From NCBI RefSeq assembly GCF_008369105.1, contig NZ_VINQ01000005.1, forward strand, positions 62,001 to 126,000: a stretch of 64,000 nt of DNA, written 5' to 3'. Shown piece by piece: positions 24,550-47,113 of the stretch. Below the pieces are notes generated by a model that was not told the DNA's origin, made no database searches, and was given only the letters and a program-made list of their open reading frames with translations. Positions within the stretch are counted from its first letter, which is position 1; every line of letters begins with the position of its first letter. Origin of the DNA: Aquicoccus porphyridii (lineage in GTDB: Bacteria; Pseudomonadota; Alphaproteobacteria; Rhodobacterales; Rhodobacteraceae). The translations under genes and the position numbers were made by a program.

Positions 24550-25032
24550 TCAGGTCATCCGCCGCAAAAGCGACAGGAAAACCTCGCGCTCCTGCGAATT
24601 CAGCGGCGCCAGCGTCTTTTCCGTCACCACCCGACCCACCTCGGTCATCCGCGCCAAAAGAGCCTCGCCCTCGGGCGAAAGCGAAATCAGCATCCGCCGC
24701 TTGTCCTCGGGATCGGGCACCGTCTCGGTCAGGCCCTTCTGGCGCAGCCGGTCCGCCACGCCCTTGATCGTGGCCACGTCCATCGCCGCCAGCCGCCCCA
24801 GCCGGTTCTGCGACACCCGGCCCTGCTCGCCGATCCGCACCAGCGCGGCGAATTGCATCGCGGTCAGCCCCTCCAGCGTATGCGCCTGGAAAATCGCCGC
24901 GTGGCGCTGGTTGGCCAACCGCATCAGGTATCCGACCTGATCTTCAAGGCGATATCCCTCCCGCGCCACCGCCCTGCCCTCAGACCGCAAGATATTGCTG
25001 GCTGATCTCGGGATGGGCATCGAGATCGGCAA
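24550..25032 (-). CDS. MarR family transcriptional regulator
   Basis: A 160-residue winged-helix dimer-forming regulator. The DNA-binding core is at about residues 55-125 (LTAMQFAALVRIGEQG ... QNRLGRLAAMDVATIKGVADRLRQKGL) with the wing at DPEDKRRMLISLSPEG. It is the last gene of the transport/catabolic run and its start overlaps the 3' end of livF by 53 bases, so it is probably made from the same transcript. A substrate-responsive repressor of the cluster is the natural guess, unproved. ATG at 25020 is an alternative start. Confidence 0.85.
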   Translation of the reverse strand: MPISMPIPRSASNILRSEGRAVAREGYRLEDQVGYLMRLANQRHAAIFQAHTLEGLTAMQFAALVRIGEQGRVSQNRLGRLAAMDVATIKGVADRLRQKGLTETVPDPEDKRRMLISLSPEGEALLARMTEVGRVVTEKTLAPLNSQEREVFLSLLRRMT

Positions 25033-25681
25033 ACCCGCCCTCGTATCGCAACGTGCCCTTCTCGATGATACAGGCCCGGTCGGCCACGGCGCGGGCGAAA
25101 TGCAGGTTCTGCTCGCTCAAGAGCACCGAAAGCCCCTCGGCCTTCAACTCCTTGATGACCCGCGCCATCTGCTCGACGATCACCGGCGCGATGCCCTCGC
25201 TCGGCTCGTCCAGCAGCACCACCTTGGGGTTGCCCATCAGCGTGCGCGCGATGGTCAGCATCTGCTGCTCGCCGCCCGACAATTGCTTGCCCAGGTTGCG
25301 CCGCCGCTCGGCCAGGTTGGGGAACAGTTCGAACAGGTGTTCGCGGCTCCATTCCGGCGCGTCCGGGCGCGCCGGGCGGTCACCGACTTCAAGGTTTTCC
25401 TCGACCGTCAGATCGCCAAAGATGCGCCGTTCCTCGGGGACATAGCCAATGCCCATCCGACAGACCATATGCGATGGCTTGCGCAGGATCGACACCCCGT
25501 CATAGGTGATCTCGCCCGCCTTCTGATGGACCAGCCCCATGATGCATTTCATCGTCGTGGTCTTGCCCGCGCCGTTGCGCCCCAGAAGCGCCACCACCTC
25601 GTTGCCACCAACGCGCAGCGACACCCCGTTCAGGATCTGCGCCCGCCCATAGCGCGCGGTCAGGTCTTTCACCTCAAGCAT
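24980..25681 (-). CDS. livF: ABC transporter ATP-binding protein, LivF type
   Basis: A 233-residue cytosolic ATPase of the branched-chain-amino-acid-type uptake family. Walker A GRNGAGKTT, signature LSGGEQQ, Walker B VVLLDEPSEG and the switch His region SVLLSEQNLHF are all intact. The ATG at 25681 overlaps the 3' end of livG by eight bases. In this family LivF pairs with LivG to drive LivH/LivM. The substrate is likely set by the binding protein at 28471 and need not be an amino acid. Confidence 0.93.
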   Translation of the reverse strand: MLEVKDLTARYGRAQILNGVSLRVGGNEVVALLGRNGAGKTTTMKCIMGLVHQKAGEITYDGVSILRKPSHMVCRMGIGYVPEERRIFGDLTVEENLEVGDRPARPDAPEWSREHLFELFPNLAERRRNLGKQLSGGEQQMLTIARTLMGNPKVVLLDEPSEGIAPVIVEQMARVIKELKAEGLSVLLSEQNLHFARAVADRACIIEKGTLRYEGGFADLDAHPEISQQYLAV

Positions 25682-26447
25682 GATCCGCCTCCGACTCTCC
25701 GAACACCGTGCCACCGCCCAGGTACACCTCCTGCACCAACGGGTTGCCGCGAATTTCCTCGCCCGTGCCCTCCGCGATCAACCCCCCGCGATTAAGCACG
25801 AGGATGCGATGCGCATGGGCAAAGACCACGTCCATGTCATGCTCGGTGAAAAGCACGCTCACGCCGCGGTCGGCCACGATCTTCGCGGTCAGTTCCATCA
25901 ACGCCACCCGCTCGCTCGGCGCCATCCCGGCGGTCGGCTCGTCCATCAGCAACAGCGTCGGGTCGGGGGCCAGCGCCACGGCCAGTTCCAGCCGCTTGAG
26001 ATCGCCGTAAGCCAGCTCCGAACAGGCCCGCCCGGCCTGATCCTCCATCGACACCAACCGCAAGAGCGCCTCGGCCTCGTCGCGATAAAGCCGCGTCGCC
26101 CGGCTCAGCATGTCGAACATCCGCCGGTGATGGCTGATCAACGCCATCTGGATATTCTCGATCACCGTCATCGACAGGAACGTCCGGGTGATCTGGAACG
26201 TCCGCCCCACCCCCATCCGCACGATCTTGCGCGGCCGCACCCCGATCAGGTCCTGCCCGTTCAGGCGCACCTCCCCCCGGTCGGGCCGCAGATACCCGTT
26301 CACCATGTTGAAACAGGTGGTCTTGCCCGCCCCGTTCGGCCCGATCAGCGCAAGGAACTCGCCCTTGCCAAGGTCAAACGACACGTCATCCACCGCCACC
26401 AGCCCGCCAAATCTCTTGGTCAGACCGCGCACCTCCAGCACGTTCAT
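25674..26447 (-). CDS. livG: ABC transporter ATP-binding protein, LivG type
   Basis: A 257-residue ATPase with Walker A GPNGAGKTT, the signature region ELAYGDLKRLE and Walker B LLLMDEPTAGM, followed by VLFTEHDMDVVF. The C-terminal tail (GTGEEIRGNPLVQEVYLGG) is typical of LivG. GGGGAGATGAGGT precedes the ATG. It lies 79 bases after the fused permease gene, the gap being filled by a repeat-like stem-loop at 26472-26511. Confidence 0.93.
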   Translation of the reverse strand: MNVLEVRGLTKRFGGLVAVDDVSFDLGKGEFLALIGPNGAGKTTCFNMVNGYLRPDRGEVRLNGQDLIGVRPRKIVRMGVGRTFQITRTFLSMTVIENIQMALISHHRRMFDMLSRATRLYRDEAEALLRLVSMEDQAGRACSELAYGDLKRLELAVALAPDPTLLLMDEPTAGMAPSERVALMELTAKIVADRGVSVLFTEHDMDVVFAHAHRILVLNRGGLIAEGTGEEIRGNPLVQEVYLGGGTVFGESEADHA

Positions 26448-26471
26448 ACCTCATCTCCCCGCTTCATCTGA

Positions 26472-26511
26472 CCCCAAATACCTCGGGGAGTGTGAGGGGC
26501 TGGCCCCTCAC
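26472..26511. repeat. Paired stem-loops, Rhodobacterales REP-like element
   Basis: CCCC-AAATACCT-CGGGG is followed by GTGAGGGGC-TG-GCCCCTCAC, a perfect 9-bp stem. Sequences of this form (CCCAAATACCTCGGGG plus a G-rich hairpin) are, to my knowledge, common between genes in Rhodobacterales. Here it lies inside the operon, between livHM and livG, where it could stabilise or attenuate the message. Confidence 0.5.
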
Positions 26512-26526
26512 GTCCGAAACCCGCCA

Positions 26527-28380
26527 TCATGCCTGCCCCTCCCGGCGCAGCCCCAGCGCGCGCAACAGCCGGTCAACACCGCCCGCCACCCCGTCGGGCG
26601 CCAGAAGAACCACACCAAGGATGATCATCCCGAAGATGAAGCGCCAGTAATCCAGGCGGCTCACCCAATCCTCGATCAGCACGAAAACACCGGCGCCCAA
26701 GATCGGCCCGGCCAGCGCATGGATGCCGCCCAGCAGCACCATGATGAGCCCGTCCACCGACTGCGCGATCCCCAGGACATCGGGAAAGACCGAGCCCTTG
26801 GAAAAGACAAAGACCACGCCCGCCACCCCGGCCATCGTACCGGCCAGCGCAAACCCCATCCATTGATGGAACTTCACGTCCATCCCGATCGCCTCGGCGC
26901 GCACGTCGCTGTCACGAATGCCGCGCAACCCATAGCCAAAGGGCGAATGCGCGACCCGTCGCAGGAACCAGATGCCGCCGATGCACAGCGCGAAGGCGAC
27001 ATAGAAATAGGCCTGGTCGCTCGACGCCCAGGATGCTGGCCAGATCCCGAGGATGCCGTCATCGCCCCCGGTAAACTCCTGCGACTGGAACGTGACGCCC
27101 CACAGGATCTGCGCCGCCGCCAATGTGAGCATGGCAAGGTAGACCCCCGACAGGCGCACGCAGAACCAGCCAAAGAAAAGCGCCGCAGCGGCCGCCGCCA
27201 ACGGGCCGACGATCATCGCCGGGATCATCGACAACCCGAGGTAACTCACCGCCATCGCCGCGCCATAGGCCCCGACCCCGAAATAGGCCGCGTGGCCGAA
27301 ACTCACCATGCCGCCCAGCCCCATCATGAAATGCAGCGAGACCGCGAACAGTGTCGCCACCATCACATCGACCAGCAGGATGCTGGCAAAATCGCTCACC
27401 ATCACCGGACTTGCCGCCAGTGCAAAGACCAGCGCCATCAGCACAAGCGTCGCGCGCGACGACAAGAGCCGCAGCGGCTGCTCGGGCTCGGTCGGCGCGC
27501 CATGGCCGCTGCCCTCCTTGCCGAAAAGCCCATAGGGCCGCACGATCAGCACCACCGCCATCACCACGAATGGCAGCACGATCGAGATTTGCGGAAAGAC
27601 AAGCACCGCAAAGGCATTGAGCACCGAGATCAGCACGGCGGCCACGAACGCGCCCGAAACGCTGCCCATGCCACCGATCACCACCACGACAAAGGCATCG
27701 CCGATTACCGAAAGATCCATCTGAAGGCTCACCGCCTCGCGCGGGATCTGGATCGCGCCGCCAAGCCCCGCAAGCGCCGCACCCAGCACGAAAGCGGCCG
27801 AGAAAAGCCACGCCTGGTTGACGCCCAGCGCGCCCACCATCTCGCGGTCCTGCGTCGCCGCGCGCACCAGAACGCCCCAGCGGGTGCGGTGGAACACAAG
27901 CCATATCCCGGCCAGGACCGCGGGCCCGATCAGGATGAGCGCAAGATCATATTCCGGGATCGGCTCGCCCATGATGCGCAGCGCGCTGTCCAGCCCGGGC
28001 GCGCGCGGTCCCAGCTTGTCCTCGGCCCCCCAGACCGCCTGCGTCATGTCCTGGATGATCAGCACCACGCCGAAGGTCGCGACCAGTTGGAAAAGTTCCG
28101 GCGCGTGATAGATCCGCCGCAGGATCGTCATCTCGACGATCAGCCCCAGAAGCCCCACGATCAGCGCCGCGGCGATCACCCCCCCCCAGAACCCAAGGAT
28201 GCTGCCCGGGAACAGTGCGACGATGGAATAGGCGAGATATGCCCCCACCATGTAGAACGAGCCATGCGCGAAATTGACGATCCGCGTGACCCCGAAAATG
28301 ATCGACAGCCCGCAGGCGATCAGAAACAGCGACGAGGCATTCGCCAGCCCCGTCAGCAATTGCGCGACATAAAAGCCCAT
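26527..28380 (-). CDS. ABC transporter permease, LivH-LivM fusion
   Basis: A 617-residue inner-membrane protein joining the two permeases usually encoded separately. Residues about 1-295 are LivH-like (LTGLANASSLFLIACGLSIIFGVTRIVNFAHG; later VIGGMGSVSGAFVAAVLI) and about 310-600 are LivM-like (GGMVSFGHAAYFGVGAYG; GVAGVVFVFSKGSV). Roughly 16-18 membrane helices are expected. A hydrophilic linker near residue 290-300 (GKEGSGHGAPTEPEQP) joins the halves. Fused permeases of this type are known but less usual than separate genes. It is 90 bases downstream of the binding-protein gene, separated by a terminator-like stem-loop. Confidence 0.92.
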   Translation of the reverse strand: MGFYVAQLLTGLANASSLFLIACGLSIIFGVTRIVNFAHGSFYMVGAYLAYSIVALFPGSILGFWGGVIAAALIVGLLGLIVEMTILRRIYHAPELFQLVATFGVVLIIQDMTQAVWGAEDKLGPRAPGLDSALRIMGEPIPEYDLALILIGPAVLAGIWLVFHRTRWGVLVRAATQDREMVGALGVNQAWLFSAAFVLGAALAGLGGAIQIPREAVSLQMDLSVIGDAFVVVVIGGMGSVSGAFVAAVLISVLNAFAVLVFPQISIVLPFVVMAVVLIVRPYGLFGKEGSGHGAPTEPEQPLRLLSSRATLVLMALVFALAASPVMVSDFASILLVDVMVATLFAVSLHFMMGLGGMVSFGHAAYFGVGAYGAAMAVSYLGLSMIPAMIVGPLAAAAAALFFGWFCVRLSGVYLAMLTLAAAQILWGVTFQSQEFTGGDDGILGIWPASWASSDQAYFYVAFALCIGGIWFLRRVAHSPFGYGLRGIRDSDVRAEAIGMDVKFHQWMGFALAGTMAGVAGVVFVFSKGSVFPDVLGIAQSVDGLIMVLLGGIHALAGPILGAGVFVLIEDWVSRLDYWRFIFGMIILGVVLLAPDGVAGGVDRLLRALGLRREGQA

Positions 28381-28403
28381 GCGGCCCGTCCCCCGTCAAG
28401 ATA

Positions 28404-28450
28404 CGATTTTGTTCTCACGAAAAATCGGGGCGGCAGACACCACCGCCCCG
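28404..28450 (-). terminator. Intrinsic terminator/attenuator between binding protein and permease
   Basis: On the minus strand CGGGGCGG and CCGCCCCG (28450-28426) form a perfect 8-bp stem with a 9-base loop, directly followed by ATTTTT. A second, weaker stem (CGATTTT/AAAATCG, 28427-28404) overlaps the T tract. Partial termination would raise binding-protein mRNA over permease mRNA. Confidence 0.75.
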
Positions 28451-28470
28451 AATGCTCATTCGGACCCGGC

Positions 28471-29685
28471 TTATTCCGCCGGGCGCATCTTGGCCGCGTC
28501 TTCTTCGCTGGGCAGGTAATTCGCCCCGTCGGCATAGAACCAGTCGACCATCTTGGGCTTGCCATCGACCAGTGCGGTGGTGCCCACATAGGCCCCCATG
28601 GTCGATTGGTGATCGGCCGCGCGGTAAAAGAACGGCCCGGTGGGCGAACTGGGCACTTCAAGCCCCTCCATCGCCGCCAGCAAGGCTTCGGTGTCGGTCG
28701 ATCCGGCCTTTTCCAGCGCCGCCTTGATCGACAGGACCGAGTTGTACCCCACGATCGAGCCGGTCTTGGGCGCTTCGCCCCAGCGATCCATGTAGGCCTT
28801 GCCAAAGGCTTCATGCTCGGGCGTGTCGATGTCCATCGACGGGTATCCGGTCACGATCCAGCCCTCGGGCGCCTCGGCGCCCAGCGGGTCGAGATATTCC
28901 GGCTCCCCGCTCAACAGCGACGCCACGATCCGATCCTCGAACAGGAACCGCAGGCTGCCCTCGCGCACGAACTTGGCCAGGTCGCCCCCGAAGGTCACGT
29001 TATAGATCGCGTCGGGCTTGGCCGATTCGATTGCCCGCACGGTCGAACCCGCGTCGATCTTGAACAGCGGCGGCCATTGCTCGCTCACCCATTCCACGTC
29101 CGGTTGCAACCGGTTCAGCTCGGATTTGAACGCTGCCACCGCATCCTTGCCATAGGCATAGTTGGGCGCGACCGTGGCCCAGCGTTTCTTGTCGAGTTTC
29201 GCCGCCTGCTCGGCGAGCATCGCCGCCTGCATGTGGGTCGAAGGCCGCAAACGATAGGTATAGCGGTTGCCCTTCGACCACACGAGCGCATCGGATAGCG
29301 GCTCGGAGGCCAGGAAGAACACTTCCTTCTGTTTCGCGAAATCCGCAAGGGCAAGGCCGATATTCGACAGGAAGCCGCCGAACAGCATCACCGCTTCGTC
29401 CCTGGAAACCATCTCTTCCGCGATGCGGATCGCGGTGGCCGGATCGCCGGTGTCATCGCGGCTGATGATCTCGAGCATCGCGCCGTTCACCCCGCCCGCC
29501 GCGTTGATCTCTTCCATCGCCAGCGTCCAGCCCTTCTTGTAAGGCTCGGTAAAGGCCGGCAGGGCGGTATAGGAATTGATCTCGCCGATCACGATCTTTT
29601 CCTGCGCCTGCACCGCCCCGGGGATCATCCCCAGCATCGGCAGCGCCGCCAGCGCGCCCAGTATCTTGCGTCTCATCTCATTCAT
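28471..29685 (-). CDS. ABC transporter substrate-binding protein, LivK type
   Basis: A 404-residue periplasmic protein with a signal peptide (ILGALAALPMLGMIPGAVQAQ, cleavage after VQA) and the type I periplasmic binding fold of the LivK/Leu-Ile-Val family (KIVIGEINSYTALPAFTEPYKKGWTLAMEEINAAGGVNG; MLFGGFLSN; VVGYNSVLSIKAALEKAG). The ATG at 29685 has GGGAGA at good spacing; a GTG two codons earlier is in frame. Neighbours suggest an aromatic or heterocyclic acid ligand rather than leucine; family members are known that bind such acids. Ligand not determinable from sequence. Confidence 0.9.
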   Translation of the reverse strand: MNEMRRKILGALAALPMLGMIPGAVQAQEKIVIGEINSYTALPAFTEPYKKGWTLAMEEINAAGGVNGAMLEIISRDDTGDPATAIRIAEEMVSRDEAVMLFGGFLSNIGLALADFAKQKEVFFLASEPLSDALVWSKGNRYTYRLRPSTHMQAAMLAEQAAKLDKKRWATVAPNYAYGKDAVAAFKSELNRLQPDVEWVSEQWPPLFKIDAGSTVRAIESAKPDAIYNVTFGGDLAKFVREGSLRFLFEDRIVASLLSGEPEYLDPLGAEAPEGWIVTGYPSMDIDTPEHEAFGKAYMDRWGEAPKTGSIVGYNSVLSIKAALEKAGSTDTEALLAAMEGLEVPSSPTGPFFYRAADHQSTMGAYVGTTALVDGKPKMVDWFYADGANYLPSEEDAAKMRPAE

Positions 29686-29754
29686 ATTCACGTCTCCCGG
29701 TTGGTTGTCCTAATTTTCGCTCTCTTCGAGCATTCTTGGTTTCCTGAAATGCCA

Positions 29755-29793: not shown

Positions 29794-30378
29794 CTACCTC
29801 AATCCATCCTTGCCCTCGGCCTCGTCGTGGCGCAAGCCGCCAACCCGCGGCAAGGGCCGCCCGCTGTCGGTCACGGCCACGGCGACCATGATCTCATTGC
29901 CGCGCGGCGCATCGTTCATCATCACCTCGATCCCGTCGAAATGGCTGCGCACATAGGCCGCGTCCTTGTGCCCGAGCGGCACGTCGAGCACCTGACCCGG
30001 GCTGCCCATCTTCTTCGACGACGCCACCAGCGCCGCACCCTTCTCCACCGCCGCACGCAGCGGCGCGCCCAGCTTCGGGTGCAGGATCGCGGCGGCATGC
30101 TCCAACTCGCCGTTTTCGCCCACCATGGCCGACTTGCCGTAACTCTCGGCCTCATTCGGCGCGATCCCCAGCGCGCTCACACAGCGTTCGCCCAAAAGCC
30201 CGCCCAGCTCGGCCCCGATCTCCATCAGCTCAGAGAGATCCTCCTCGTATCGCCCGGCAAAGGGGTTCTCGATCACCGCCACGGCCACCGCCTTGCGCGT
30301 CGGCGGGGCGATCTCGCGGCCCATCTCGCGCCGGGTTTCCTCGACCGTCACCGCCAGCTTCCTGATTTTCGCGCTCAT
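29794..30378 (-). CDS. DUF1185 (amino acid synthesis family) protein, copy A
   Basis: A 194-residue cytosolic protein of Pfam PF06684. Known structures of this family show a chorismate-mutase-like trimer fold without an assigned reaction. It shares with the next gene VIENPFAGRYE, YGK.A..G..GE.EH, a Pxx..S.KK.G..G..LDVP pattern, YVRSHFD.IEV and NDAPR, and both end in EGKDGLR. Its start overlaps the stop of copy B by four bases (ATGA), so the two are cotranslated and may form a hetero-oligomer. Its role in the heterocycle cluster is unknown; a ring-opening or tautomerase-like step is conceivable. Confidence 0.85.
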   Translation of the reverse strand: MSAKIRKLAVTVEETRREMGREIAPPTRKAVAVAVIENPFAGRYEEDLSELMEIGAELGGLLGERCVSALGIAPNEAESYGKSAMVGENGELEHAAAILHPKLGAPLRAAVEKGAALVASSKKMGSPGQVLDVPLGHKDAAYVRSHFDGIEVMMNDAPRGNEIMVAVAVTDSGRPLPRVGGLRHDEAEGKDGLR

Positions 30379-30962
30379 CTCAACCCGTCCTTTCCTTCGA
30401 TCTGCGACGCTTCAAGGCCACCGGCACGCGAATGCACCCGCGCCCCGTCGGTCATGACAAGGATCAATGCCATCTCATCCGCGCGCGGCGCGTCGTTGCA
30501 CCCGACTTCGATACTGTCGAAATGGCTGCGCACGTAAGACGCCTGGATATGCGTCACCGGCACGTCGAGCCGCGCACCGACGCCGCCCACCTTCTTGGTC
30601 GAGGGCACAATCGCCGCCGAGCGTTCGCGCCCGATCAATTCGCGCATCGCGTAACCGCCCGGCGCATGCCACAGCGCGCCATGCTCGATCTCGCCGCCCG
30701 CGCCGATGATCGCGCCCTTGCCATAGCCCTCGACCACCTCGGCCCCGCCCAGCATCTTGATGAGCCGCCCGGCCATCTTGAGGCCCAGGGGCTTCAGATC
30801 CTCCATGAAGGGCTGGATATCGGGCTCATACCGCCCGGCAAACGGGTTCTCGATCACCGCCATGATCCATGCCCGGCGATAGGGTTTCTCGGCCCGCGCG
30901 CCGCCCTCGTGCCAGGTTTCTTCCAGGCTCTCGACCATCTTGCGTATCTTCACATCAGGCAT
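30375..30962 (-). CDS. DUF1185 (amino acid synthesis family) protein, copy B
   Basis: A 195-residue paralogue of copy A. The start at 30962 (MPDVKIRKMVESLEETWHEGG) aligns with the N-terminus of copy A and overlaps the UPF0280 stop by eight bases; a longer start would add an Arg-rich stretch encoded inside that gene. Shared blocks include AVIENPFAGRYE, EGYGKGAIIGAGGEIEHGA, ASYVRSHFDSIEVG and NDAPRADEM. The conserved ENPFAGRY and NDAPR blocks are probably the active-site or interface elements. Presence of two divergent copies in one operon hints at distinct functions. Confidence 0.85.
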   Translation of the reverse strand: MPDVKIRKMVESLEETWHEGGARAEKPYRRAWIMAVIENPFAGRYEPDIQPFMEDLKPLGLKMAGRLIKMLGGAEVVEGYGKGAIIGAGGEIEHGALWHAPGGYAMRELIGRERSAAIVPSTKKVGGVGARLDVPVTHIQASYVRSHFDSIEVGCNDAPRADEMALILVMTDGARVHSRAGGLEASQIEGKDGLR

Positions 30963-31800
30963 CCGTCGCCTCCTCCGCCTCGATAAACTGCTCCGCACCG
31001 GCAATCCGAATCTCGCCTCGCAGCGCCAGCGCGGCCCCGCGGATCAACCCCTTGTCCCGCATCTCTTCGGCCAGCGCGGCACCGCGTGCCAGCGCCTGTT
31101 CCACGTCGCCCTTGTCCAGCGCACCAACCGCCACGACCACTTCGCGCGCCCCGAGATCGCTGTCGGGCCGCACCTCGTTGGCCGGTTCCCGCCGGATCGC
31201 GCCATGCCCCGGCAGATCGACCGCGTTCGCGATCAGCGTCGCCGCCACATCCGCCGCCGCCGCATCCGCCGCCAGCACCGTCACCGCGTCGGCAATGCCG
31301 CGCGACAGGCTGCGCCCGCCGCGCCCCGACGTGGCGATCCCGCCGATCCCGTCTCCGCCGCCGATCCCGATCTGCCCGCCACTCCCGGCCATGGCGACGC
31401 GAAACCGCTCGCCCGCCTCCAGCCAGATCGCGATATCGCCGCCATTGTTCACATAGGCCCGGCGCAGATCGGCCCGCATGCACATACCCGCCAGCACGTG
31501 ATCGGCCACGGACCCCGCCACCGCCGCCATCGGCGTGACGAACCCCACATGCCGCGCCACCGCGCGCACCATCCTTTGCGCCACCGGCCCCGCCACCACG
31601 CCGGGCGGCCGCGTCGCGCCCCATCCGTCACGGCGCAACAGGTCCAACTCATCCACCAGCCGCTCGAGAACCCCCTCGAACGCCGCACATGCCGCGTCAA
31701 AGCCGCGCGCCCGGTCGCCGTCGCACCCGATGATGAGGTCGATCGGCCCATGCTGAAGATGCAGCCGCTCGCCCGGCAATATCGCGCGCGTGAAACTCAT
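30955..31800 (-). CDS. UPF0280 family (ApbE-like) protein
   Basis: A 281-residue protein, Ala/Gly-rich, matching UPF0280, a family related in fold to ApbE flavin transferases. Seen here: NNGGDIAIWL (resembling the ApbE NxGG block), GGDGIGGIATSGRGGRSLSRGIADAVTVLA (the GIATSG segment is like the ApbE nucleotide region) and ATLIANAVDLPG. There is no signal peptide, unlike ApbE, so it should act in the cytosol. The ATG at 31800 overlaps the upstream stop (ATGA). No reaction is established for the family; flavin handling for the neighbouring flavo/Fe-S enzymes is one hypothesis. Confidence 0.8.
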   Translation of the reverse strand: MSFTRAILPGERLHLQHGPIDLIIGCDGDRARGFDAACAAFEGVLERLVDELDLLRRDGWGATRPPGVVAGPVAQRMVRAVARHVGFVTPMAAVAGSVADHVLAGMCMRADLRRAYVNNGGDIAIWLEAGERFRVAMAGSGGQIGIGGGDGIGGIATSGRGGRSLSRGIADAVTVLAADAAAADVAATLIANAVDLPGHGAIRREPANEVRPDSDLGAREVVVAVGALDKGDVEQALARGAALAEEMRDKGLIRGAALALRGEIRIAGAEQFIEAEEATDA

Positions 31801-38333: not shown

Positions 38334-39395
38334 TCACCCGCCCCAGGTTGTTTCCAACACGCGTAGCCAGTTGCCATGCGCGATCTTCTCGATCCGTGCC
38401 TCGGCATACCCATGCGCACGCATCGCCTCGATCAGCGCGGGCAGCCCGGCAACCGATCCGATCTCTTCGGGCACCACCGCGCCATCGAAATCCGAACCGA
38501 GCGCGACATGATCCTCGCCCATCCGCCCGATCATGTGATCAAGATGGTCAAGCATCACCGCAAGCGGCATCTGGGCTCGCATCTGCCCATCCCGGCGCAG
38601 GAACCCGGTGGCAAAGTTGAGCCCGACAACCCCGCCCGACCGCGCCACCGCATCAAGCTGCGCATCGCTCAGGTTGCGCGCCTGCGGGCAGAATGCATAG
38701 GTGTTGGAATGCGTTGCAATCAAAGGTTTTTCACTGATTTCGGCCACATCCCAAAAGCCCTTTTCGTTGAGGTGGCTGAGGTCAAGCATGATCCCCATCG
38801 CGTCACAGCGCCGGACCAGTCGCTTGCCATCCTCGGTCAGTCCCGGGCCGACATCCCCGGTCGACGGATATCGGAACGGCACCCCCTCGCCCCAGATCGT
38901 CGGCCGGCTCCACACCGGCCCGAGCGAGCGCAGACCCGCGGCGTAAAGCACGTCGAGCACATGAAACTCCGGGTCGATCGCCTCGGCCCCCTCGATATGC
39001 ATCACGGCCGCCATTTCGCCCGCGCCCATCGCGGCACGGATATCTGCCACGCTGCGGCAGATGCGCAAGGCGCCCTCGGCCTCGAGCTGCATCAGGAGCG
39101 CCGCCATCTCCATCACCACCGGCAGCGCCGCCTCCTGCGGCACCGGGTCGGGCAGTGGCAGGTCATATTCGGGCTTGTCCATCTCGGCCTTCATTTCCGC
39201 AAGGTCCAGCGGCGACGGCACGAAGATCGCGAAGAACCCGCCCGCGAATCCCCCCGCGCGCGCCTTGGGCAGGTCGACGTGAAAATCGCTCCCCTCGCGG
39301 AAAAGCCGGGTCGCGGGTCGCCCGCCCGCCCCGCGCAATTTCAAAAGAACGTCGTTATGCCCGTCGAATACGGGCACGGGTTTCACGCTGGCCAT
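38334..39395 (-). CDS. Membrane dipeptidase (peptidase M19)
   Basis: A 353-residue dinuclear zinc dipeptidase. Motifs: DGHNDVL (HxD ligands), HIEGAEAI (bridging Glu), LSHLNEKGFWD, ATHSNTYAFC and GSDFDG. No signal peptide is seen, so cytosolic. The ATG at 39395 is preceded by AGGTGGGGG; a GTG at 39407 lies within that ribosome site. Bacterial M19 enzymes accept L,D- and D-amino acid dipeptides and related amides. It is 67 bases upstream of the enamidase start and could be cotranscribed, but a functional link is unproved. Confidence 0.9.
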   Translation of the reverse strand: MASVKPVPVFDGHNDVLLKLRGAGGRPATRLFREGSDFHVDLPKARAGGFAGGFFAIFVPSPLDLAEMKAEMDKPEYDLPLPDPVPQEAALPVVMEMAALLMQLEAEGALRICRSVADIRAAMGAGEMAAVMHIEGAEAIDPEFHVLDVLYAAGLRSLGPVWSRPTIWGEGVPFRYPSTGDVGPGLTEDGKRLVRRCDAMGIMLDLSHLNEKGFWDVAEISEKPLIATHSNTYAFCPQARNLSDAQLDAVARSGGVVGLNFATGFLRRDGQMRAQMPLAVMLDHLDHMIGRMGEDHVALGSDFDGAVVPEEIGSVAGLPALIEAMRAHGYAEARIEKIAHGNWLRVLETTWGG

Positions 39396-39459
39396 GTCTG
39401 CCCCCACCTGCTGTTGCCTGTCGGGGCAGACTAGGGCGCGCGCGGCACCGTGCCAATGG

Positions 39460-40440
39460 CTATTCCGGCACGCAGATCCTGCCCGCCAACGCGGCCCTGA
39501 CCGTGCGCCACAACAGGCCCATGATGATCACGCACAGCGCGATCAGAAGCCCCCCACCGACAAGGCGATGCGCCCCCGACCCCGTGAGCTCGGCAAAACG
39601 GAAACTGGCAATCGTGGCGGCGGCAAAGGGAAAGCTCAGCGCCCAGAAACTCAACGTGAAATCCAGCCGCAGGATGCGCGGCAGTTGCACCAGGACGATC
39701 ACGGTAAAGAAATAGGCCCCGTTGATCAGGATGCGCGCAAAGGCATCGACCTCACCGGTCAGGTGCAGCCACGCCACGAAGGCCACCGCCGGCGGCGCGA
39801 TCAGGATGACCAGCGTCGGCTGCAAGCGCCCGGGCAAGGGATCGTGGAAAATCAATCGGTTGATCACCAGCGTCAACAACACCAGCCAGAAGATCAACCC
39901 GACGGACATGAAATACCAACTGATCTCGACATAGCCGAACGGCACGCCCGCAACCGGCACGATCACGTTGCCCACCGCCGGAATGAACCATGCCGGGTTG
40001 AGCATCCCGTGCTGGAAACTGCGCGTCCCGATCCAGCTCGTCACCACCGCGATGGTCAGCACGAACTGAAGCGCCATGCCAAGCAACCACATGCCCTCGG
40101 CCAGCCCCGCGTTGCGCGGCATCGTCGCCGTCGCCAGCAGCAGCAGGGAAATCGAGATCGCAGGAAAGAACAAAAGCCGCACCGGATGCTTCCACTCGGC
40201 CACCACCGCGCCGGGGTATATCGCGGCCTTGGCGACATAGCCCGCCGTGATCAGCCCGAACAGAACGAAGGTGAAGAGGTAAAGCCCGGTCGAGATCTGC
40301 GGCCCCATGCCAAAGGCAGCTTCGCCCGCGTGCATGGCCAGCGTCAGCCCCGCTATGCCCATCACCATGCCGAAAAGCGGCACCGGGTAATGCTCAAGCC
40401 GGTTCACAGGTTCCGCCTTGGCCTGCGCTGCATCCGTCAT
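39460..40440 (-). CDS. SLAC1/TehA (TDT) family anion transporter
   Basis: A 326-residue inner-membrane protein with about ten hydrophobic helices. The N-terminal LEHYPVPLFGMVMGIAGLTLA and the WFIPAVGNVIVPVAG segment are typical of the tellurite-resistance/dicarboxylate/SLAC1 family, whose members export sulfite, anions or C4-acids. The start is set at the ATG at 40440, with GGGAA upstream; ATG 40455 is possible. It follows DUF5368 by 17 bases and the SQR-like gene beyond, so sulfite or another sulfur anion is a reasonable substrate. Confidence 0.85.
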   Translation of the reverse strand: MTDAAQAKAEPVNRLEHYPVPLFGMVMGIAGLTLAMHAGEAAFGMGPQISTGLYLFTFVLFGLITAGYVAKAAIYPGAVVAEWKHPVRLLFFPAISISLLLLATATMPRNAGLAEGMWLLGMALQFVLTIAVVTSWIGTRSFQHGMLNPAWFIPAVGNVIVPVAGVPFGYVEISWYFMSVGLIFWLVLLTLVINRLIFHDPLPGRLQPTLVILIAPPAVAFVAWLHLTGEVDAFARILINGAYFFTVIVLVQLPRILRLDFTLSFWALSFPFAAATIASFRFAELTGSGAHRLVGGGLLIALCVIIMGLLWRTVRAALAGRICVPE

Positions 40441-40457
40441 GCCATCGTTTCCCATGC

Positions 40458-40817
40458 TCAATCGTCGCTGGCTTCGGGGCCCTTGATCAATGCTTGCATG
40501 GTATAAACGAGGATCGCAATCCCGATCGCCCCCGCCACGGCCACGCCCATCAAGACGATCACGTCAATCGGCCCGCCGATATCGCGAAAGCCCGAGCTGG
40601 TCACCTTCTGCACGAACAACACCGCCGCCACCGCGCCCACCGGCATCGACAATTGCGCCAGCAGGAACTTGCGCATCGACATCGAGCGGTCGCGGATCAG
40701 CACATAAATATAGGCCACCGTGATCAGCGCCGCGACCACGACCATCGCCCAGAACAGGCCCCGGCCGAACATCTCTTCCCAGACGGCGATCAGGGTCTCG
40801 AATGTGAGTTCTTTCAT
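40458..40817 (-). CDS. DUF5368 membrane protein
   Basis: A 119-residue protein with three hydrophobic segments at about 22-42, 53-70 and 83-108 (MVVVAALITVAYIYVL; VGAVAAVLFVQ; VIVLMGVAVAGAIGIAILVYT). I recognise the DUF5368 arrangement beside sulfide-reductase-like flavoproteins and SLAC1 proteins in Rhodobacterales. It is 11 bases downstream of the flavoprotein gene, suggesting it anchors that periplasmic enzyme or helps electron transfer to quinone. Function not established. Confidence 0.75.
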   Translation of the reverse strand: MKELTFETLIAVWEEMFGRGLFWAMVVVAALITVAYIYVLIRDRSMSMRKFLLAQLSMPVGAVAAVLFVQKVTSSGFRDIGGPIDVIVLMGVAVAGAIGIAILVYTMQALIKGPEASDD

Positions 40818-40828
40818 CGTCCGTCTCC

Positions 40829-42148
40829 TTACGCCTTGCCACGCAGCATGGCGTTATAGGTGGGTTTGAGCGCCACTTCCTTCATCAGCCAACTGATCCA
40901 CAACTCTTCGAGCGGCGCGATCACGCCGGGGAAACTCGGCACCAGGTCGTTGTTGTAATCGAACTCGATCAGCATCGCCCTGCCCACGCGGGTGATGAGC
41001 GGGCAGGAGGTATAGCCGTTGTAAACCGTGTCCGTGGTGTCACCCGCGATCTGGGCGACCAGGTGATCCTCGACCACCGGCACCTGCCATTTCACGCTGG
41101 CCGCGGTCTTGCCCTTGGGCACCCCCGCCACGTCGCCCACGGCGAACACGTTGGGATAGCGGTTGTGGCGCAGCGTGTAGGGATCGACCTCGACCCAACC
41201 CTGATCGACCCATCGGTTCTCCCAGCTCAGGCCCGACTGGCGGATCACGTCCGGCGCGCGCTGCGGCGGGATCACGTTGGTGAAATCGTAATCCGTCTCA
41301 TGTTCGATCCCGTCGGCATCCTCGAAGGTCAGGATCTTCTTCACCGGGTCGATGCTCTTCAGAACCCTGTGCATCTCGGTCTTGATGCCACGCTCGGCGA
41401 ACAGCATCCGCACCTTTTCCGCCACGATCGGCACGCCGAACAAGGCCCCGGAACTGTTCCAGTATTCCACCTCGACCTTGCCGCGATTGCCCTTCTTGCT
41501 GGCATAATCCTCGGTCAGGAAGGTGTATTTGAGCGGCGCGCCCGCGCATTTCATCTCGGTCGCCGGGCGCAGGAACACCGCCTTGCCCCCGGTCGAGGTA
41601 AAGCGGTCCATCTCGGCCCATGTCCTGGCGGCATGGTCAGGCCCGGCATAGACCGCGCCCACGCCATCCTTGCCCACGAGATCAAGGTTGAACCCTTCGA
41701 TCCCGTCCCAGTCGAGCACAAGCCCCGGCGCGGTGATCAGGAAGTCATAATCCAGCACCGTGCCCGACGCGGTGGTCAGCGTCTGCGCCTCCGGGTCGAT
41801 CTCGGCGGCATATTCCGCCACCAGCATCACCTCGCGCGGCAGCCATTCGGCGGTCTGGCTCACCGAATAGCCCGCCGGTTTCAACCCGGCAGCGATCAGG
41901 GTGAACCCGGGCTGATACCAATGCTCGGCACGCCCGTCGACAAGGGTGATCTCGGCCCCGTCCAGCCGTGCGACCAGGCGGTTGGCCAAGGCCGTCCCGG
42001 CGGCCCCCGCGCCAAGGATGACGATTTTCGCCTTGGTCGGCACTTTCCGTGCTGCGGCGGGTCGCGCACCTGCGGCCAAAAGGGCGGCGCCAGAGGCGAG
42101 GCCCAGAAATCCGCGGCGCGTCGACAGGAATGTCTGATCCGATGTCAT
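40829..42148 (-). CDS. Tat-exported sulfide:quinone oxidoreductase-like flavoprotein
   Basis: A 439-residue protein. The N-terminus has a Tat signal (STRRGFLGLASGAALLAAGA), so the folded flavoprotein goes to the periplasm. FAD binding: VILGAGAAGTALANRL and FAVGDVAGVPKGKTAASV. Two cysteines sit where SQR has its redox pair: EMKCAGAPLKY and GYTSCPLITR, as in type II SQR; the third cysteine of type I enzymes is absent. It should oxidise sulfide, or a related thiol, and reduce quinone. The ATG at 42148 gives the full Tat motif; upstream codons belong to the control region with an FNR-type box. Confidence 0.85.
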   Translation of the reverse strand: MTSDQTFLSTRRGFLGLASGAALLAAGARPAAARKVPTKAKIVILGAGAAGTALANRLVARLDGAEITLVDGRAEHWYQPGFTLIAAGLKPAGYSVSQTAEWLPREVMLVAEYAAEIDPEAQTLTTASGTVLDYDFLITAPGLVLDWDGIEGFNLDLVGKDGVGAVYAGPDHAARTWAEMDRFTSTGGKAVFLRPATEMKCAGAPLKYTFLTEDYASKKGNRGKVEVEYWNSSGALFGVPIVAEKVRMLFAERGIKTEMHRVLKSIDPVKKILTFEDADGIEHETDYDFTNVIPPQRAPDVIRQSGLSWENRWVDQGWVEVDPYTLRHNRYPNVFAVGDVAGVPKGKTAASVKWQVPVVEDHLVAQIAGDTTDTVYNGYTSCPLITRVGRAMLIEFDYNNDLVPSFPGVIAPLEELWISWLMKEVALKPTYNAMLRGKA

Positions 42149-42193
42149 GCGCGTCTCTCTCGGCTTTACATCGCTCTTTTCGCATATGAAGCA

Positions 42194-42217
42194 GGAGTAC
42201 TCCTTGACATAGATCAA
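42194..42217. promoter_or_regulatory. FNR/FnrL-type box and adjoining palindrome upstream of the SQR-like gene
   Basis: On the minus strand TTGATCTATGTCAA (42217-42204) fits the FnrL consensus TTGAT-N4-RTCAA. It abuts AGGAGTACTCCT, a perfect 12-base palindrome (42193-42204). They lie 46-69 bases ahead of the ATG at 42148. CATATG at 42188-42183 may act as -10. Oxygen-responsive control plus a second dyad-binding regulator is suggested. Confidence 0.6.
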
Positions 42218-42289
42218 CCATGCGCCCCGAATGCCACTTTTCAAGGCACTCGCGGCACATATCCCGATCCCGGGCGTGTCCTACATCGC

Positions 42290-43612
42290 TCAGTTCAGGA
42301 GGCGCATCAGGAACAGCGTGATCGACGGAAAGGCGACAAGGATGATCACCCGCACGATATCCGAAGCCACGAAATACGTCACCGCCTTGTAGGTCTCGAC
42401 CATCGGCGTCGTGCGATCCATCGAGTTGATGACAAAGAGATTCATCCCGACCGGCGGCGTGATCAGCCCGACCTCGACCACGATGAGGACAATGATCCCG
42501 AACCAGATCGCCGTTTCCTCGAAGGTCAGGCCGAAATCCAGTTGGCTGATGATTGGGAAAAAGATCGGCACGGTCAGCAGGATCATCGACAGGCTGTCCA
42601 TGACGCAGCCAAAGACAAGGTAAAGCGACAGGATGATCGCCAGAACCACCCAGGGACTGTAACCCAAGCTCGTGACATATTGCGCGAGCTCCTGTGGCAC
42701 CTGCGTCAGCGCCAGAAACCCGTTATAGAACGCCGCCCCCAGCACAATGAAAAAGATCATGGCGGTGGACCGGCCCGTGGCCAGGAAACTCTCGATCAGG
42801 GTGCTGAAATTCAGCCCCCGATTGACCAGCGCGATCAACCCGGTGCCCGCCGCACCCACCGCCGCGCCCTCGGTCGGTGTGAACCAGCCCAGATAGATCC
42901 CCCCCACCACCAGCAGGAACACCAGAAGCACCGGCCACACGTCGGCCAGCGCCCGGAAGCGCTCGGCATAGTGGATCGGCTCCCGCGTGCCCGCTGAATC
43001 GGGATGGATGCGCACATAGATCGAAATCGTGATGATATAGCCGATCGCCGCCAGTATCCCGGGAATGAACGCGGCAAGGAACAGCTTGGCGATATTCTGC
43101 TCGGTCAGGATCGCATAGATGACAAGGATCACGCTGGGCGGAATGAGAATGCCCAGCGTCCCGCCCGCCGCCAGCGTCGCGGTGCTGAACCCCCCGGAAT
43201 AGCCGTAGCGGCGCAACTCGGGCAGGGCGACCTGGCCCATCGTGGCCGCGGTGGCCAGCGACGACCCACAGATCGACCCGAACCCGGCACAGGCCCCGAC
43301 CGCGGCCATCGCCACCCCGCCACGCTTGTGCCCCAGCCAGGATTCGGCCGCCTTGAACAGCGCGGTGGACATGCCCCCCAGCGTCGCGAAATGCCCCATC
43401 AACAGGAACATCGGCACGATCGACAGCGAATAGCTCGAAAAGGTCGAATAGGTCTCGGTCTTGAGCCGCGACAGCGCCATGTTCCAGCCATCGGTCACGA
43501 AATAGAGACCGAACAGCCCGACAAGAAACATCGCCAGCCCAATGGGCACCCGCAAGAAGATCAGCAACAAGAGAACGGGAAACGACGTCAGGCCGATTTC
43601 AAGACTGGTCAA
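42290..43612 (-). CDS. dctM: TRAP transporter large permease (DctM)
   Basis: A 440-residue inner-membrane protein with about 12 helices. Family motifs include FLRVPIGLAMFLVG, ACAGFGSICGSSLATAATMG, GTLGILIPPSVILVIYA and LITPPVGMNLFV. The start is a TTG at 43612 that overlaps the dctQ stop (TTGA) and has GGAGG seven bases upstream; no ATG lies near, and the N-terminus LTSLEIGLTSFPVLLLL is right for the family. It uses an ion gradient to take up the acid delivered by DctP. Confidence 0.93.
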   Translation of the reverse strand: MTSLEIGLTSFPVLLLLIFLRVPIGLAMFLVGLFGLYFVTDGWNMALSRLKTETYSTFSSYSLSIVPMFLLMGHFATLGGMSTALFKAAESWLGHKRGGVAMAAVGACAGFGSICGSSLATAATMGQVALPELRRYGYSGGFSTATLAAGGTLGILIPPSVILVIYAILTEQNIAKLFLAAFIPGILAAIGYIITISIYVRIHPDSAGTREPIHYAERFRALADVWPVLLVFLLVVGGIYLGWFTPTEGAAVGAAGTGLIALVNRGLNFSTLIESFLATGRSTAMIFFIVLGAAFYNGFLALTQVPQELAQYVTSLGYSPWVVLAIILSLYLVFGCVMDSLSMILLTVPIFFPIISQLDFGLTFEETAIWFGIIVLIVVEVGLITPPVGMNLFVINSMDRTTPMVETYKAVTYFVASDIVRVIILVAFPSITLFLMRLLN

Positions 43613-44196
43613 TGATCCACCTCCGCGGCCTGCACGATCGTGCGCATGGTCAGGAACTCGGCAATCCGCACCACTGCCATGTAAACACCCACCAGCGCCG
43701 CCACCACCGACGCGATCAGGCTGATCAGATAGGCCCACCAGATCGGGAACTGAAGCAGGAACGTGGTCTCGTTATACTGCTTTTTCGACATCATCCCCTC
43801 GAACAACCGCCACGCGATAAGGATCAGAACCGCCGCGAACACGATATCCACGATCATCTGGATCACCCGGTTGGCCCGCTTGGGCAAATAGGCAGTGAAA
43901 ATATCCACGGTCGCATGCCCCGCCGTGATCTGGCACAAGGGAATAAAGGCGAAAATGGCAAAGGCAATACCCGCCTCGACCAGTTCGTAATCGCCCCAGA
44001 CCGGCCCGACCCCCCGTTCCAGAAGCCATCCGGACACGGCCGGCATGAAGGTCGCGATCGGGTCCCAGTGCAGAAAGCTGTTGATTCCCCGACCCAGCAC
44101 CGAAACGCAGGTCAACAGCACCAGCGCGGTCAAAACGATCCCGCCCAGCACCGCCATCGCCCGGGCAAGAACAAGCATGAATCCGTGTATCGCCAC
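43609..44196 (-). CDS. dctQ: TRAP transporter small permease (DctQ)
   Basis: A 195-residue membrane protein with four helices and the conserved WxxxEG-like W..FEGM region (AWRLFEGMMSKKQYNETTFLLQFPIWWAY). The start is the GTG at 44196, with GGGAGG seven bases upstream; an earlier in-frame ATG would fall in the stem-loop between dctP and dctQ. Length fits the family. It pairs with DctM. Confidence 0.88.
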   Translation of the reverse strand: MAIHGFMLVLARAMAVLGGIVLTALVLLTCVSVLGRGINSFLHWDPIATFMPAVSGWLLERGVGPVWGDYELVEAGIAFAIFAFIPLCQITAGHATVDIFTAYLPKRANRVIQMIVDIVFAAVLILIAWRLFEGMMSKKQYNETTFLLQFPIWWAYLISLIASVVAALVGVYMAVVRIAEFLTMRTIVQAAEVDH

Positions 44197-44249
44197 GTCG
44201 GGCCCTCCCCGCTTCTGCACGTCGGTGCGCGCGCATGCATATTCGATAC

Positions 44250-44285
44250 CCGTGGCTGCGGCGCGCATGCACCCCGCGGCCACGG
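44250..44285 (-). terminator. Stem-loop between dctP and dctQ
   Basis: CCGTGGCTGCGG and CCGCGGCCACGG form a 12-bp stem with one mismatch and a 12-base loop, 12 bases after the dctP stop on the minus strand. No T tract follows. A direct repeat GCGCGCATGCA (44229-44239, 44261-44271) overlaps. It likely protects the dctP message or attenuates read-through. Confidence 0.6.
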
Positions 44286-44297
44286 CTTCTTTATATC

Positions 44298-45332
44298 TTA
44301 CTTGGTGTTTTCCGCGATCAACGCCTTGGCCTGATCGACCAGCGCCTGCCCGTCAAATCCAAGCTCGTCCATCTCTGCGATCCATTCGGCCTCGATTCCG
44401 GCGGCGGCATCTTTCCACTCCTGCACCTCATCGGCGCTCAAGGTTATGATGTTGTTACCGCGTTCGACCGCAACCGCGCGCGACGGCGCATCGGCCCCCG
44501 CCATCAGCTTGCCCGCCAGCGCCGAGAAATCCTCGCCCGACTGGCTGTCGATCGCCGCCTTGAGATCGTCCGGCAGGCTCTCGTACTTCTCCTTGTTCAT
44601 CGCGAAAACGAAAGCAGTGGTATAGAGCGATTCATCACCGAACTCGGTGTGATTGTTCACCAGCTCGGGCACTTTGAGCGCCCCGGTCACTTCCCACGGG
44701 ATCACCGCCGCACCGATCACGCCTTTCGACAGCGCCTCGGGCACCGCGGGCACCGGCATGCCGATCGGTGTTGCCCCCAACGCGGTGAACAGCTTGTTGG
44801 CCACGCGGGTCGGCGCCCGCAGCTTCACCCCGTTGAGATCGCTCACCGAACGGATCGGCTCCTTCGAATGAATGAGCCCCGGCCCGTGCACCCAGACCGC
44901 CAGGACCTTCACGTCCTTGAAGTCCTTGTCCATCATGTTGGCCTCGGCATATTGCCAGTAGGCCCGGCTGGTATCCTCGGCATTGGTCATGATGAACGGC
45001 AGTTCGAACACTTCCGATTGCGGGAACCGCCCCGGCGTATAGCCCAGCACCGTCCAGGTGATATCGGCCACGCCATCGGTCACCTGCCCGTAAAGCTCGG
45101 GCGGCTTGCCCCCGAGTTGCATCGACGGGTAGTGGTCGATCTTGATCTTTCCGCCCGAAGCCTCCTCGACACGTTCGGCCCAGGGCTCGAGCACCAGTTT
45201 CGGCACGTTGGCTTGCGCGGGCAGGAACTGGTGCATCTTCAGCGTCACCTCTTGCGCCATAGCACTCGTTCCCATGCCTGCAGCCATCGCTGCGCTGGCC
45301 GCAAGACTCATCAGTTTACGTTTCGTGATCAT
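44298..45332 (-). CDS. TRAP substrate-binding protein DctP, paralogue 1
   Basis: A 344-residue periplasmic protein. Signal peptide MITKRKLMSLAASAAMAAGMGTSAMAQ; mature part starts EVTLKMHQFLPAQANVPK. The binding fold shows the family segment GATPIGMPVPAVPEALSKGVI and IPWEVTGALKVPELVNNHTE. It is closely related to the next gene. GGGAG precedes the ATG. Ligand unknown, probably a carboxylate; the conserved arginine expected in DctP proteins may be that of KLRAPTRV. Confidence 0.92.
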   Translation of the reverse strand: MITKRKLMSLAASAAMAAGMGTSAMAQEVTLKMHQFLPAQANVPKLVLEPWAERVEEASGGKIKIDHYPSMQLGGKPPELYGQVTDGVADITWTVLGYTPGRFPQSEVFELPFIMTNAEDTSRAYWQYAEANMMDKDFKDVKVLAVWVHGPGLIHSKEPIRSVSDLNGVKLRAPTRVANKLFTALGATPIGMPVPAVPEALSKGVIGAAVIPWEVTGALKVPELVNNHTEFGDESLYTTAFVFAMNKEKYESLPDDLKAAIDSQSGEDFSALAGKLMAGADAPSRAVAVERGNNIITLSADEVQEWKDAAAGIEAEWIAEMDELGFDGQALVDQAKALIAENTK

Positions 45333-45378
45333 TCCGACATCTCCCCTTGTCAGTTGGTCGTATCATTCCAGTAGCGCG

Positions 45379-46416: not shown

Positions 46417-46465
46417 CTTGGCTCCTCCCTGTAAACGTGGCGTTGGCCCGTCCGGCCCTTCCCGG

Positions 46466-47113
46466 TCAGGCTTCGAAATCCGGCTGGTTCTTCGGATGCG
46501 CGCCTTCGAACTCCGGCAACGCGGCGCAATTGTCATAGATTTCCCGAACACGCGTCAGCCCACTGATATCAACGTTGAACCGCTCGGCAGAAAAAACCTG
46601 CGGGACAAGGCATATATCGGCCAAACCCGGCGTTTCGCCAAAACAAAACCGCGTGTCGCCGGCTTGTTTCTGCAGCAATCCCTCACAGGCAGCCAGACCA
46701 TCGCCCAGCCACTGCGCCAGCCAGGCGTTCTTCTGATCCTCGCTCGCACCCAACTCCCCGGTCAGATACTTGAGCACCCGCAGATTCTGAAGCGGATGGA
46801 TCTCGCAGGCGATCACCTGTGCAAAACCCCGCTCCTGCGCCCGCGTCAACGGGTCACGCGACAAAAGCGGCGGCTCGGGATGGGTTTCGTCCAACCATTC
46901 GATGATGGCCAGCGACTGGATCAGCGTTGTGCCCTCACCGGTTTCCAGCGCCGGAACCAGTTTCTGCGGGTTCAACGCCCGAAAATCCTCGCCGGTTTGC
47001 GCCCCGCTTTTCAAATGGACCGGGCGGAAATCATAATCGATTCCCTTGATATTGAACGCAATCCGGCACCGGTAGGATGACGAGCTGCGGAAGTATCCAT
47101 GAAATGTCAGCAT
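46466..47113 (-). CDS. maiA: Zeta-class GST, maleylacetoacetate isomerase-like
   Basis: A 215-residue cytosolic protein with the zeta signature FRSSSSYRCRIA (SSC-type active-site Ser/Cys region), LNPQKLVPAL, SLAIIEWLDETHPEPPLL and EIHPLQNLRVL. These enzymes isomerise maleylacetoacetate (tyrosine/homogentisate) or maleylpyruvate (gentisate). The ATG at 47113 has GGGAGGA upstream. It is 49 bases upstream of the DctP paralogue and likely cotranscribed with the TRAP system, suggesting an acid from aromatic breakdown as ligand; no hydrolase or dioxygenase gene is nearby. Confidence 0.85.
   Translation of the reverse strand: MLTFHGYFRSSSSYRCRIAFNIKGIDYDFRPVHLKSGAQTGEDFRALNPQKLVPALETGEGTTLIQSLAIIEWLDETHPEPPLLSRDPLTRAQERGFAQVIACEIHPLQNLRVLKYLTGELGASEDQKNAWLAQWLGDGLAACEGLLQKQAGDTRFCFGETPGLADICLVPQVFSAERFNVDISGLTRVREIYDNCAALPEFEGAHPKNQPDFEA

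Follow-up and report, generated by a model that had tools for sequence, protein, structure and literature searches.

The window, by which we mean the whole stretch of 64,000 nucleotides of Aquicoccus porphyridii DNA that was analysed, carries on its minus strand a run of genes in the order Ena, FAD subunit, Mo/Fe-S subunit, Hnr, UPF0280, DUF1185-a, DUF1185-b, Liv-type ABC transporter and MarR. The enamidase (Ena), an amidohydrolase, is encoded at 38273-37086. It is followed by the FAD subunit (36844-35999) and the molybdenum and 2x[2Fe-2S] subunit (36021-33268) of a xanthine-dehydrogenase-family enzyme, both recognized by family profile matches and probably forming a nicotinate hydroxylase, and by a homologue of 6-hydroxynicotinate reductase (Hnr; 33275-31797), a name taken from the RefSeq annotation of plasmid homologues with 60-80% identity. 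The next three genes encode a UPF0280/COG2122 protein of 281 amino acids (31800-30955; NCBIfam NF003322, 334 bits, cut-off 290) and two DUF1185 proteins, the clade a member DUF1185-a (30962-30375; Pfam PF06684, AA_synth, 228 bits) and the clade b member DUF1185-b (30378-29794; PF06684, 241 bits). Both of the latter matched model positions 1-175 of 175 against a cut-off of 27, and the genome has no other PF06684 gene. The preliminary description of this DNA had three uncharacterized proteins overlapping each other and the reductase gene by 4-8 bases, and this was borne out on the minus strand, with overlaps of 4 bp (Hnr/UPF0280), 8 bp (UPF0280/DUF1185-a) and 4 bp (DUF1185-a/DUF1185-b). The run ends with genes for a Liv-type ABC transporter, probably for uptake (24980-29691; substrate-binding protein, fused LivH-LivM permease, LivG and LivF), and for a MarR-family regulator (24550-25032). 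The fusion of the LivH and LivM permeases is a single open reading frame of 617 amino acids (26527-28380). Neighbours of the cluster at 38334-46551 encode an M19 dipeptidase, a SLAC1 channel, an FAD/NAD oxidoreductase and a TRAP transporter with two DctP proteins, and their tie to nicotinate is not obvious.

A nicotinate gene cluster of known type

The best solved relative of the window Ena is the Eubacterium barkeri enamidase (2vun, 355 bits), with the second-best solved match at 26 bits. An Ena homologue, Hnr and a molybdenum hydroxylase thus lie side by side, the combination that marks a reductive nicotinate cluster. By homology, the operon would convert nicotinate, 6-hydroxynicotinate and tetrahydro-6-oxonicotinate by the successive action of the hydroxylase, Hnr and enamidase. 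A literature search on homarine catabolism as an alternative substrate gave no supporting paper. The E. barkeri nicotinate fermentation cluster shares the homologous Ena but differs from the window-type cluster in its lower pathway. We know of no description of UPF0280 or DUF1185 in the E. barkeri cluster.

The window cluster is of the aerobic reductive type known from Azorhizobium caulinodans ORS571 (AZC_2804-2790) and the Bradyrhizobiaceae strain SG-6C, whose Hnr was reported to be 42% identical to that of E. barkeri (PMC3511419). The uncharacterized proteins of the cluster were neither named nor resolved in that report (PMC3511419), whereas here the transporter, Hnr-UPF0280 and Ena-DUF1185-b were seen to separate in other genomes. 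The gene order of the window cluster recurs in tens of genera, which excludes a chance arrangement. The presence of the UPF0280 and DUF1185 genes in this known catabolic cluster is genuine and conserved, and UPF0280 and DUF1185-b are likely to take part in the pathway and not just to stand beside it. Two Roseovarius loci (L110, L043) have a gene resembling nadC (nicotinate-nucleotide diphosphorylase) downstream of their Hnr cluster.

UPF0280 is found wherever Hnr is found

We surveyed 289 genomes drawn across the class and 299 genomes of the phylum. Hnr was present in 44 of the 289 class genomes, which span 28 families, and UPF0280 in the identical 44, leaving zero discordant genomes (Fisher p=4e-53, a value made too optimistic by the relatedness of the genomes). 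UPF0280 lay directly downstream of Hnr on the same strand in 43 of these, the 44th being interrupted by a contig break. Across the phylum, both genes occurred in the same 21 genomes, and the one extra UPF0280 match was marginal (E = 2e-4). Four named Hnr loci seemed to have no UPF0280 (L084, L085, L097, L100), and whole-genome searches found the gene in all four: in L084 it lies about 10 kb upstream within the same cluster, and in the L100 genome only part of it is present, where a contig ends. The preliminary description held that the link to the pathway would be accidental if these genes rarely accompanied Hnr elsewhere; for UPF0280 the link survived this comparison in 44 of 44 and 21 of 21 genomes.

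We considered whether joint horizontal transfer of the cluster could alone explain this co-occurrence, with no functional need for UPF0280. The cluster is plasmid-borne in Sulfitobacter, Rhizobium and others, as this explanation would predict, but UPF0280 is never missing while other members of the cluster are lost, replaced or moved. Among 32 well-covered Hnr loci in which genes within 8.5 kb of Hnr were counted, UPF0280 was present in 32, the Mo subunit in 30 and the FAD subunit in 29, compared with 21 for MarR, 20 for DUF1185-a, 14 for DUF1185-b and 14-18 for the transporter genes. The cluster therefore does not travel simply as a block. Moreover, Ena and DUF1185-b co-occur even when they stand apart in the genome (G197). 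Transfer as the sole cause is accordingly highly improbable. UPF0280 is retained near Hnr no less strictly than the hydroxylase and much more strictly than the other cluster genes, and we regard it as very probably an obligate partner of Hnr.

Several Sulfitobacter carry the Hnr gene on plasmids of 90-180 kb (NZ_CP081115 and NZ_CP069007 among them). On the plasmids inspected for this, NZ_CP081115 and NZ_CP081117, two 'amino acid synthesis family' (DUF1185) genes share the plasmid with Hnr, and the nicotinate trait is therefore plasmid-borne there. One single-contig genome has Hnr in two adjacent pieces (L228, G028:C1:2969823-2971201) beside UPF0280 and neighbours that look intact, reflecting a frameshift or a sequencing error. 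No Hnr was found in a search of viral contigs.

DUF1185-b accompanies the enamidase and DUF1185-a is optional

A tree of DUF1185 proteins has two well-supported clades, a and b, besides a third group that includes Tgn-type copies. The family-invariant residues K81, E90, E92, H93, H98, R142, H144, R172 and R176 (BB2672 numbering) are kept in both DUF1185-a and DUF1185-b. Within the Glu/His/Arg cluster at the dimer interface, E90, E92, H93, H98, H144, R172 and R176 are conserved in a and b at a level of at least 0.95, and H174 in a alone. Two members of the family have been solved, BB2672 (3byq) and SPO0826 (2qtp), the latter closely related to DUF1185-b; the family is described as forming hexamers and conserving a cluster of histidines, with no reaction assigned to it (PMC2954203).

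In the class draw, true Ena (at least 575 bits, next about 313) and clade b (at least 341 bits, next 302) occurred in the same 19 of 289 genomes, and all 46 named loci that contain Ena also contain DUF1185-b. The pair is found without Hnr in one genome (G082) and away from Hnr in several others, among them G001, G071 and Kaistia. A strict rule by which DUF1185-b occurs if and only if enamidase does was true in the 289-genome draw but was broken by six Rhizobiaceae-type genomes which, together with two MAGs, hold DUF1185-b without Ena. Ena implies DUF1185-b, and DUF1185-b does not imply Ena. DUF1185-a was found solely in Hnr genomes, in 29 of the 44, and is an optional paralogue. The three proteins thus obey different rules, which is new: UPF0280 tracks Hnr, DUF1185-b accompanies every Ena and DUF1185-a is dispensable to the arrangement. 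In three genomes (G060, G202, G210), more distantly related DUF1185 and Ena-like genes stand 73-117 bp apart, and in Thermomicrobium DUF1185 is beside an amidohydrolase.

The two divergent DUF1185 copies had been taken to suggest a hetero-oligomer. A single obligate hetero-hexamer would agree with the tandem, overlapping genes, with the hexamers formed by the family (PMC2954203) and with the presence of both copies in 43 of 53 full named loci. In the 289-genome draw, however, 15 genomes have a but no b and 5 have b but no a, making an obligate heteromer unlikely, and each copy retains the full set of invariant residues, so that neither resembles a dead subunit. The proposal could not be upheld for an obligate unit, and we consider such a hexamer quite improbable.

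Many Hnr clusters (among them L184, L185, L216-L219 and L222) have a caprolactamase/hydantoinase-like, ATP-dependent HyuA(/HyuB) in place of Ena, and in Rhizobiaceae a caprolactamase-like HyuA/HyuB replaces Ena while DUF1185-b is kept. HyuA was near Hnr or DUF1185 in 18 Hnr genomes of the class draw, and Ena was present in 0 of these 18. This mutual exclusion within the drawn Hnr genomes suggests that HyuA and Ena open the ring as alternatives, Ena apparently having been replaced at this step by a non-homologous enzyme.

UPF0280 is predicted to have an ApbE fold with a remodelled active site

The AlphaFold2 model of UPF0280 (pLDDT 92.8) has a confidently predicted beta-strand at its N-terminus, in agreement with the earlier view that the protein has no signal peptide. 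Among solved structures, the closest in fold is the Desulfovibrio protein DVU1097 (2o34, Z 20.8). The flavin transferases ApbE, Ftp and FmnB align with the model at Z 14-15.6 over about 205 residues, with the best unrelated folds at Z 7.5, so that the predicted ApbE fold covers the whole length of the protein. The PF02424 profile gave no match for the window UPF0280, and the best of ten relatives scanned singly reached 21.6 bits (cut-off 25.6); an hhalign comparison of UPF0280 and the ApbE encoded in the same genome gave no useful match. The relation to ApbE is thus suggested by the modelled fold together with weak PF02424 matches.

UPF0280 shares with the FMN transferases ApbE, FmnB and Ftp (PF02424) this whole-length fold and the ATSG, DxxxT and NGGD motifs, retained in UPF0280 as ATSG, ADxxxT and NNGGD. 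The Ser/Asp/Thr/Asn core of ApbE is kept: the residues of the phosphate/Mg site, S158, D184, T188 and N119, vary little or not at all, with S158, D184 and T188 invariant in 27 UPF0280 sequences and their ApbE equivalence assigned by motif (ATSG, ADxxxT). Catalysis by ApbE involves Ser241, His257 and Asp285 (PMC12052999), and Asn216 and Thr305 of FmnB are near the metal (PMC8906456). Unlike these transferases, UPF0280 does not conserve the catalytic His (V. cholerae His257, FmnB His273); the stretch that bears it is shortened, spanning about 10 residues in place of about 20, and the corresponding position in GRS-x-S is occupied by H, L, F, Q or M. UPF0280 also differs in having no adjacent DxxSGAT target and in PF02424 scores that are listed under the cut-off. 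The sole classical ApbE (PF02424) of the genome (L150) is encoded away from the cluster, has a signal-peptide-like N-terminus and adjoins an ABC-2-type permease gene; its role may be NosX-like.

A candidate flavin site in Hnr

Neither Hnr nor the window UPF0280 has a Pfam match at the default threshold. Hnr contains a conserved cysteine motif, CxxCPVxC-x9-C, and 8 invariant Cys among 19 sequences. The E. barkeri enzyme, studied by Alhapel et al. in 2006, reportedly contains covalently bound flavin and Fe-S clusters. The canonical flavinylation motif D-x-x-[S/T]-G-A-[S/T] occurs in 0 of 19 Hnr sequences, and all 19 aligned sequences have a conserved D247-H-I-T-G-x-x-[S/T]254, a variant of the form D-x-x-T-G-x-x-[S/T], whose last position is always S or T (151 sequence matches in loci). 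This site is a candidate flavin acceptor on suggestive grounds, D-x-x-[S/T]-G by itself being a common pattern. The AlphaFold2 model of Hnr had a pLDDT of 55 and was set aside. A ferredoxin-NADP reductase gene is present in 23 of 80 loci, which fits a ferredoxin-dependent Hnr.

Possible roles of UPF0280

The reading that we prefer, to which we give slightly less than an even chance, is that the three genes are helpers with different partners, UPF0280 serving Hnr and DUF1185-b the product of ring opening. UPF0280, a cytoplasmic protein with the predicted ApbE fold, would mature Hnr by delivering or attaching the covalent flavin with an active site unlike that of classical ApbE. This flavin role is a tentative assignment, with the balance of probability somewhat against it. 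A flavin-related maturation of the reductase, as put forward in the preliminary description, is still the leading idea for UPF0280, but it has to accommodate an enzyme with no conserved catalytic His and a target with no DxxSGAT-type motif. The best studied COG2122 relatives also speak against it: they serve homocysteine synthesis with DUF39 and a NIL/ferredoxin protein and are required there, and their homology to ApbE is said to stop short of the flavin-binding region (PMC5764234).

UPF0280 could instead be a stoichiometric subunit of Hnr or a sulfur or Fe-S maturation factor for it, leaving the flavin untouched. Its ApbE fold would then be mere ancestry and Hnr would attach its own flavin, as histidyl- and cysteinyl-FAD links are known to arise autocatalytically (PMC12052999). 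The replaced His segment of UPF0280, the missing ApbE motif in Hnr and the eight invariant Hnr cysteines all agree with such a role, as does the work of the COG2122 relatives with DUF39 and ferredoxin in sulfur metabolism, where a persulfide role has been proposed (PMC5764234). On the other hand, a scaffold would not need the invariant or nearly invariant S158, D184, T188 and N119, and the fold spans the entire ApbE length. We consider this alternative possible, at roughly a one-third level of belief.

The homocysteine proteins DvMF_0044 and MA1715 and the solved DVU1097 belong to the same UPF0280 family and fold as the protein studied here, and the homocysteine COG2122 and window UPF0280 are alike in a cytoplasmic setting and in their link to iron-sulfur-dependent reductive chemistry. 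They differ in partner, which is DUF39 with NIL/ferredoxin in the one case and Hnr in the other, and no DUF39/HcyBio was found in the window genome. Homology between Hnr and DUF39/HcyBio, which would have brought both UPF0280 systems under one scheme, was considered and dropped, there being no Pfam match. In its boldest form, the flavin proposal makes UPF0280 a new class of cytoplasmic flavin transferase that dispenses with the classical His and acts on iron-sulfur reductases such as Hnr at D-H-I-T-G-x-x-[S/T], its homocysteine relatives then flavinylating or otherwise maturing the DUF39 system; this we think unlikely as a whole. If true, it would explain the flavin supply of Hnr, extend the ApbE superfamily past its known mechanism and point to one function of the family that is common to two otherwise unrelated pathways. 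Sulfate reducers need UPF0280/COG2122 to make homocysteine, and the strict pairing of UPF0280 with Hnr, a soluble enzyme reported to contain covalent flavin, offers a simple, testable system. What is new here is the pairing rule, together with a protein of ApbE fold whose active site is remodelled and which serves a single reductase.

Possible roles of DUF1185

In the preferred reading, Ena would open the ring and DUF1185-b, and perhaps DUF1185-a, would act on the product, 2-aminomethylene- or 2-formylglutarate, by enamine hydrolysis, tautomerization or decarboxylation towards glutarate semialdehyde; TgnF may do likewise on the analogous product of trigonelline ring opening. Decarboxylation is a candidate since 2-formylglutarate could yield glutarate by CO2 loss and oxidation. 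The nicotinate route of A. caulinodans continues via glutarate (PMC3511419), and in line with this, some Hnr loci hold a glutaryl-CoA-dehydrogenase-like gene and a putative CoA transferase gene (best model succinate-glutarate CoA-transferase, below cut-off). The new step handling the reductase product that was envisaged earlier fits DUF1185-b, but the association is with the ring-opening enzyme and not with the reductase. We infer a product-handling role for DUF1185 more weakly than maturation of Hnr by UPF0280, and action of DUF1185-b on the ring-opening product is a conjecture that may well prove wrong. Hnr genomes of the HyuA type exist that have no DUF1185-b, and the Rhizobiaceae hold DUF1185-b with no Ena. 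HcdD, a DUF1185-family protein of a coumarin pathway, had no measurable effect when tested (PMC7913881), and that pathway has no enamine.

DUF1185-b might instead be thought of as a subunit or activator of Ena, given that Ena implies DUF1185-b with no exception and that the pair is often adjacent even far from Hnr. Such a dependence is hard to reconcile with the six Rhizobiaceae-type genomes that hold b and HyuA but no Ena, with the E. barkeri enamidase, solved with no such partner in its entry name (2vun), or with relatives of b that accompany LLM monooxygenases and alpha/beta hydrolases instead, and we judge it unlikely.

TgnF of trigonelline degradation, which is said to stimulate succinate-semialdehyde oxidation, and HcdD of 7-hydroxycoumarin degradation (PMC7913881) are, like DUF1185-a and DUF1185-b, PF06684 members in ring-opening catabolic operons. 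Copies in contiguous operons of ALDH, LLM monooxygenase, flavin reductase and alpha/beta hydrolase occur in a genome of the window's family (G154) and on plasmids of Agrobacterium, Thioclava and Shinella. With the copies of LLM monooxygenase/ALDH operons standing in for TgnF, the tree did not group a or b with them as orthologues: these Tgn-type copies share the family-invariant residues but form a separate clade, whereas a and b are the nicotinate-cluster clades. The common theme of the DUF1185 contexts is an N-heterocycle opened to an enamine or an aldehyde acid. DUF1185 moves from two solved structures with no function to a candidate for a defined step after nicotinate and trigonelline ring opening.

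Two loci from the window genome's family that have no Hnr (L224, L225) show the Tgn-type operon as a contiguous set of ALDH, LLM monooxygenase, flavin reductase, alpha/beta hydrolase and DUF1185 genes. In Kaistia (L221), a ketopantoate-reductase-family gene lies between the DUF1185 pair and Ena, and its product is a candidate reducer of the aldehyde product.
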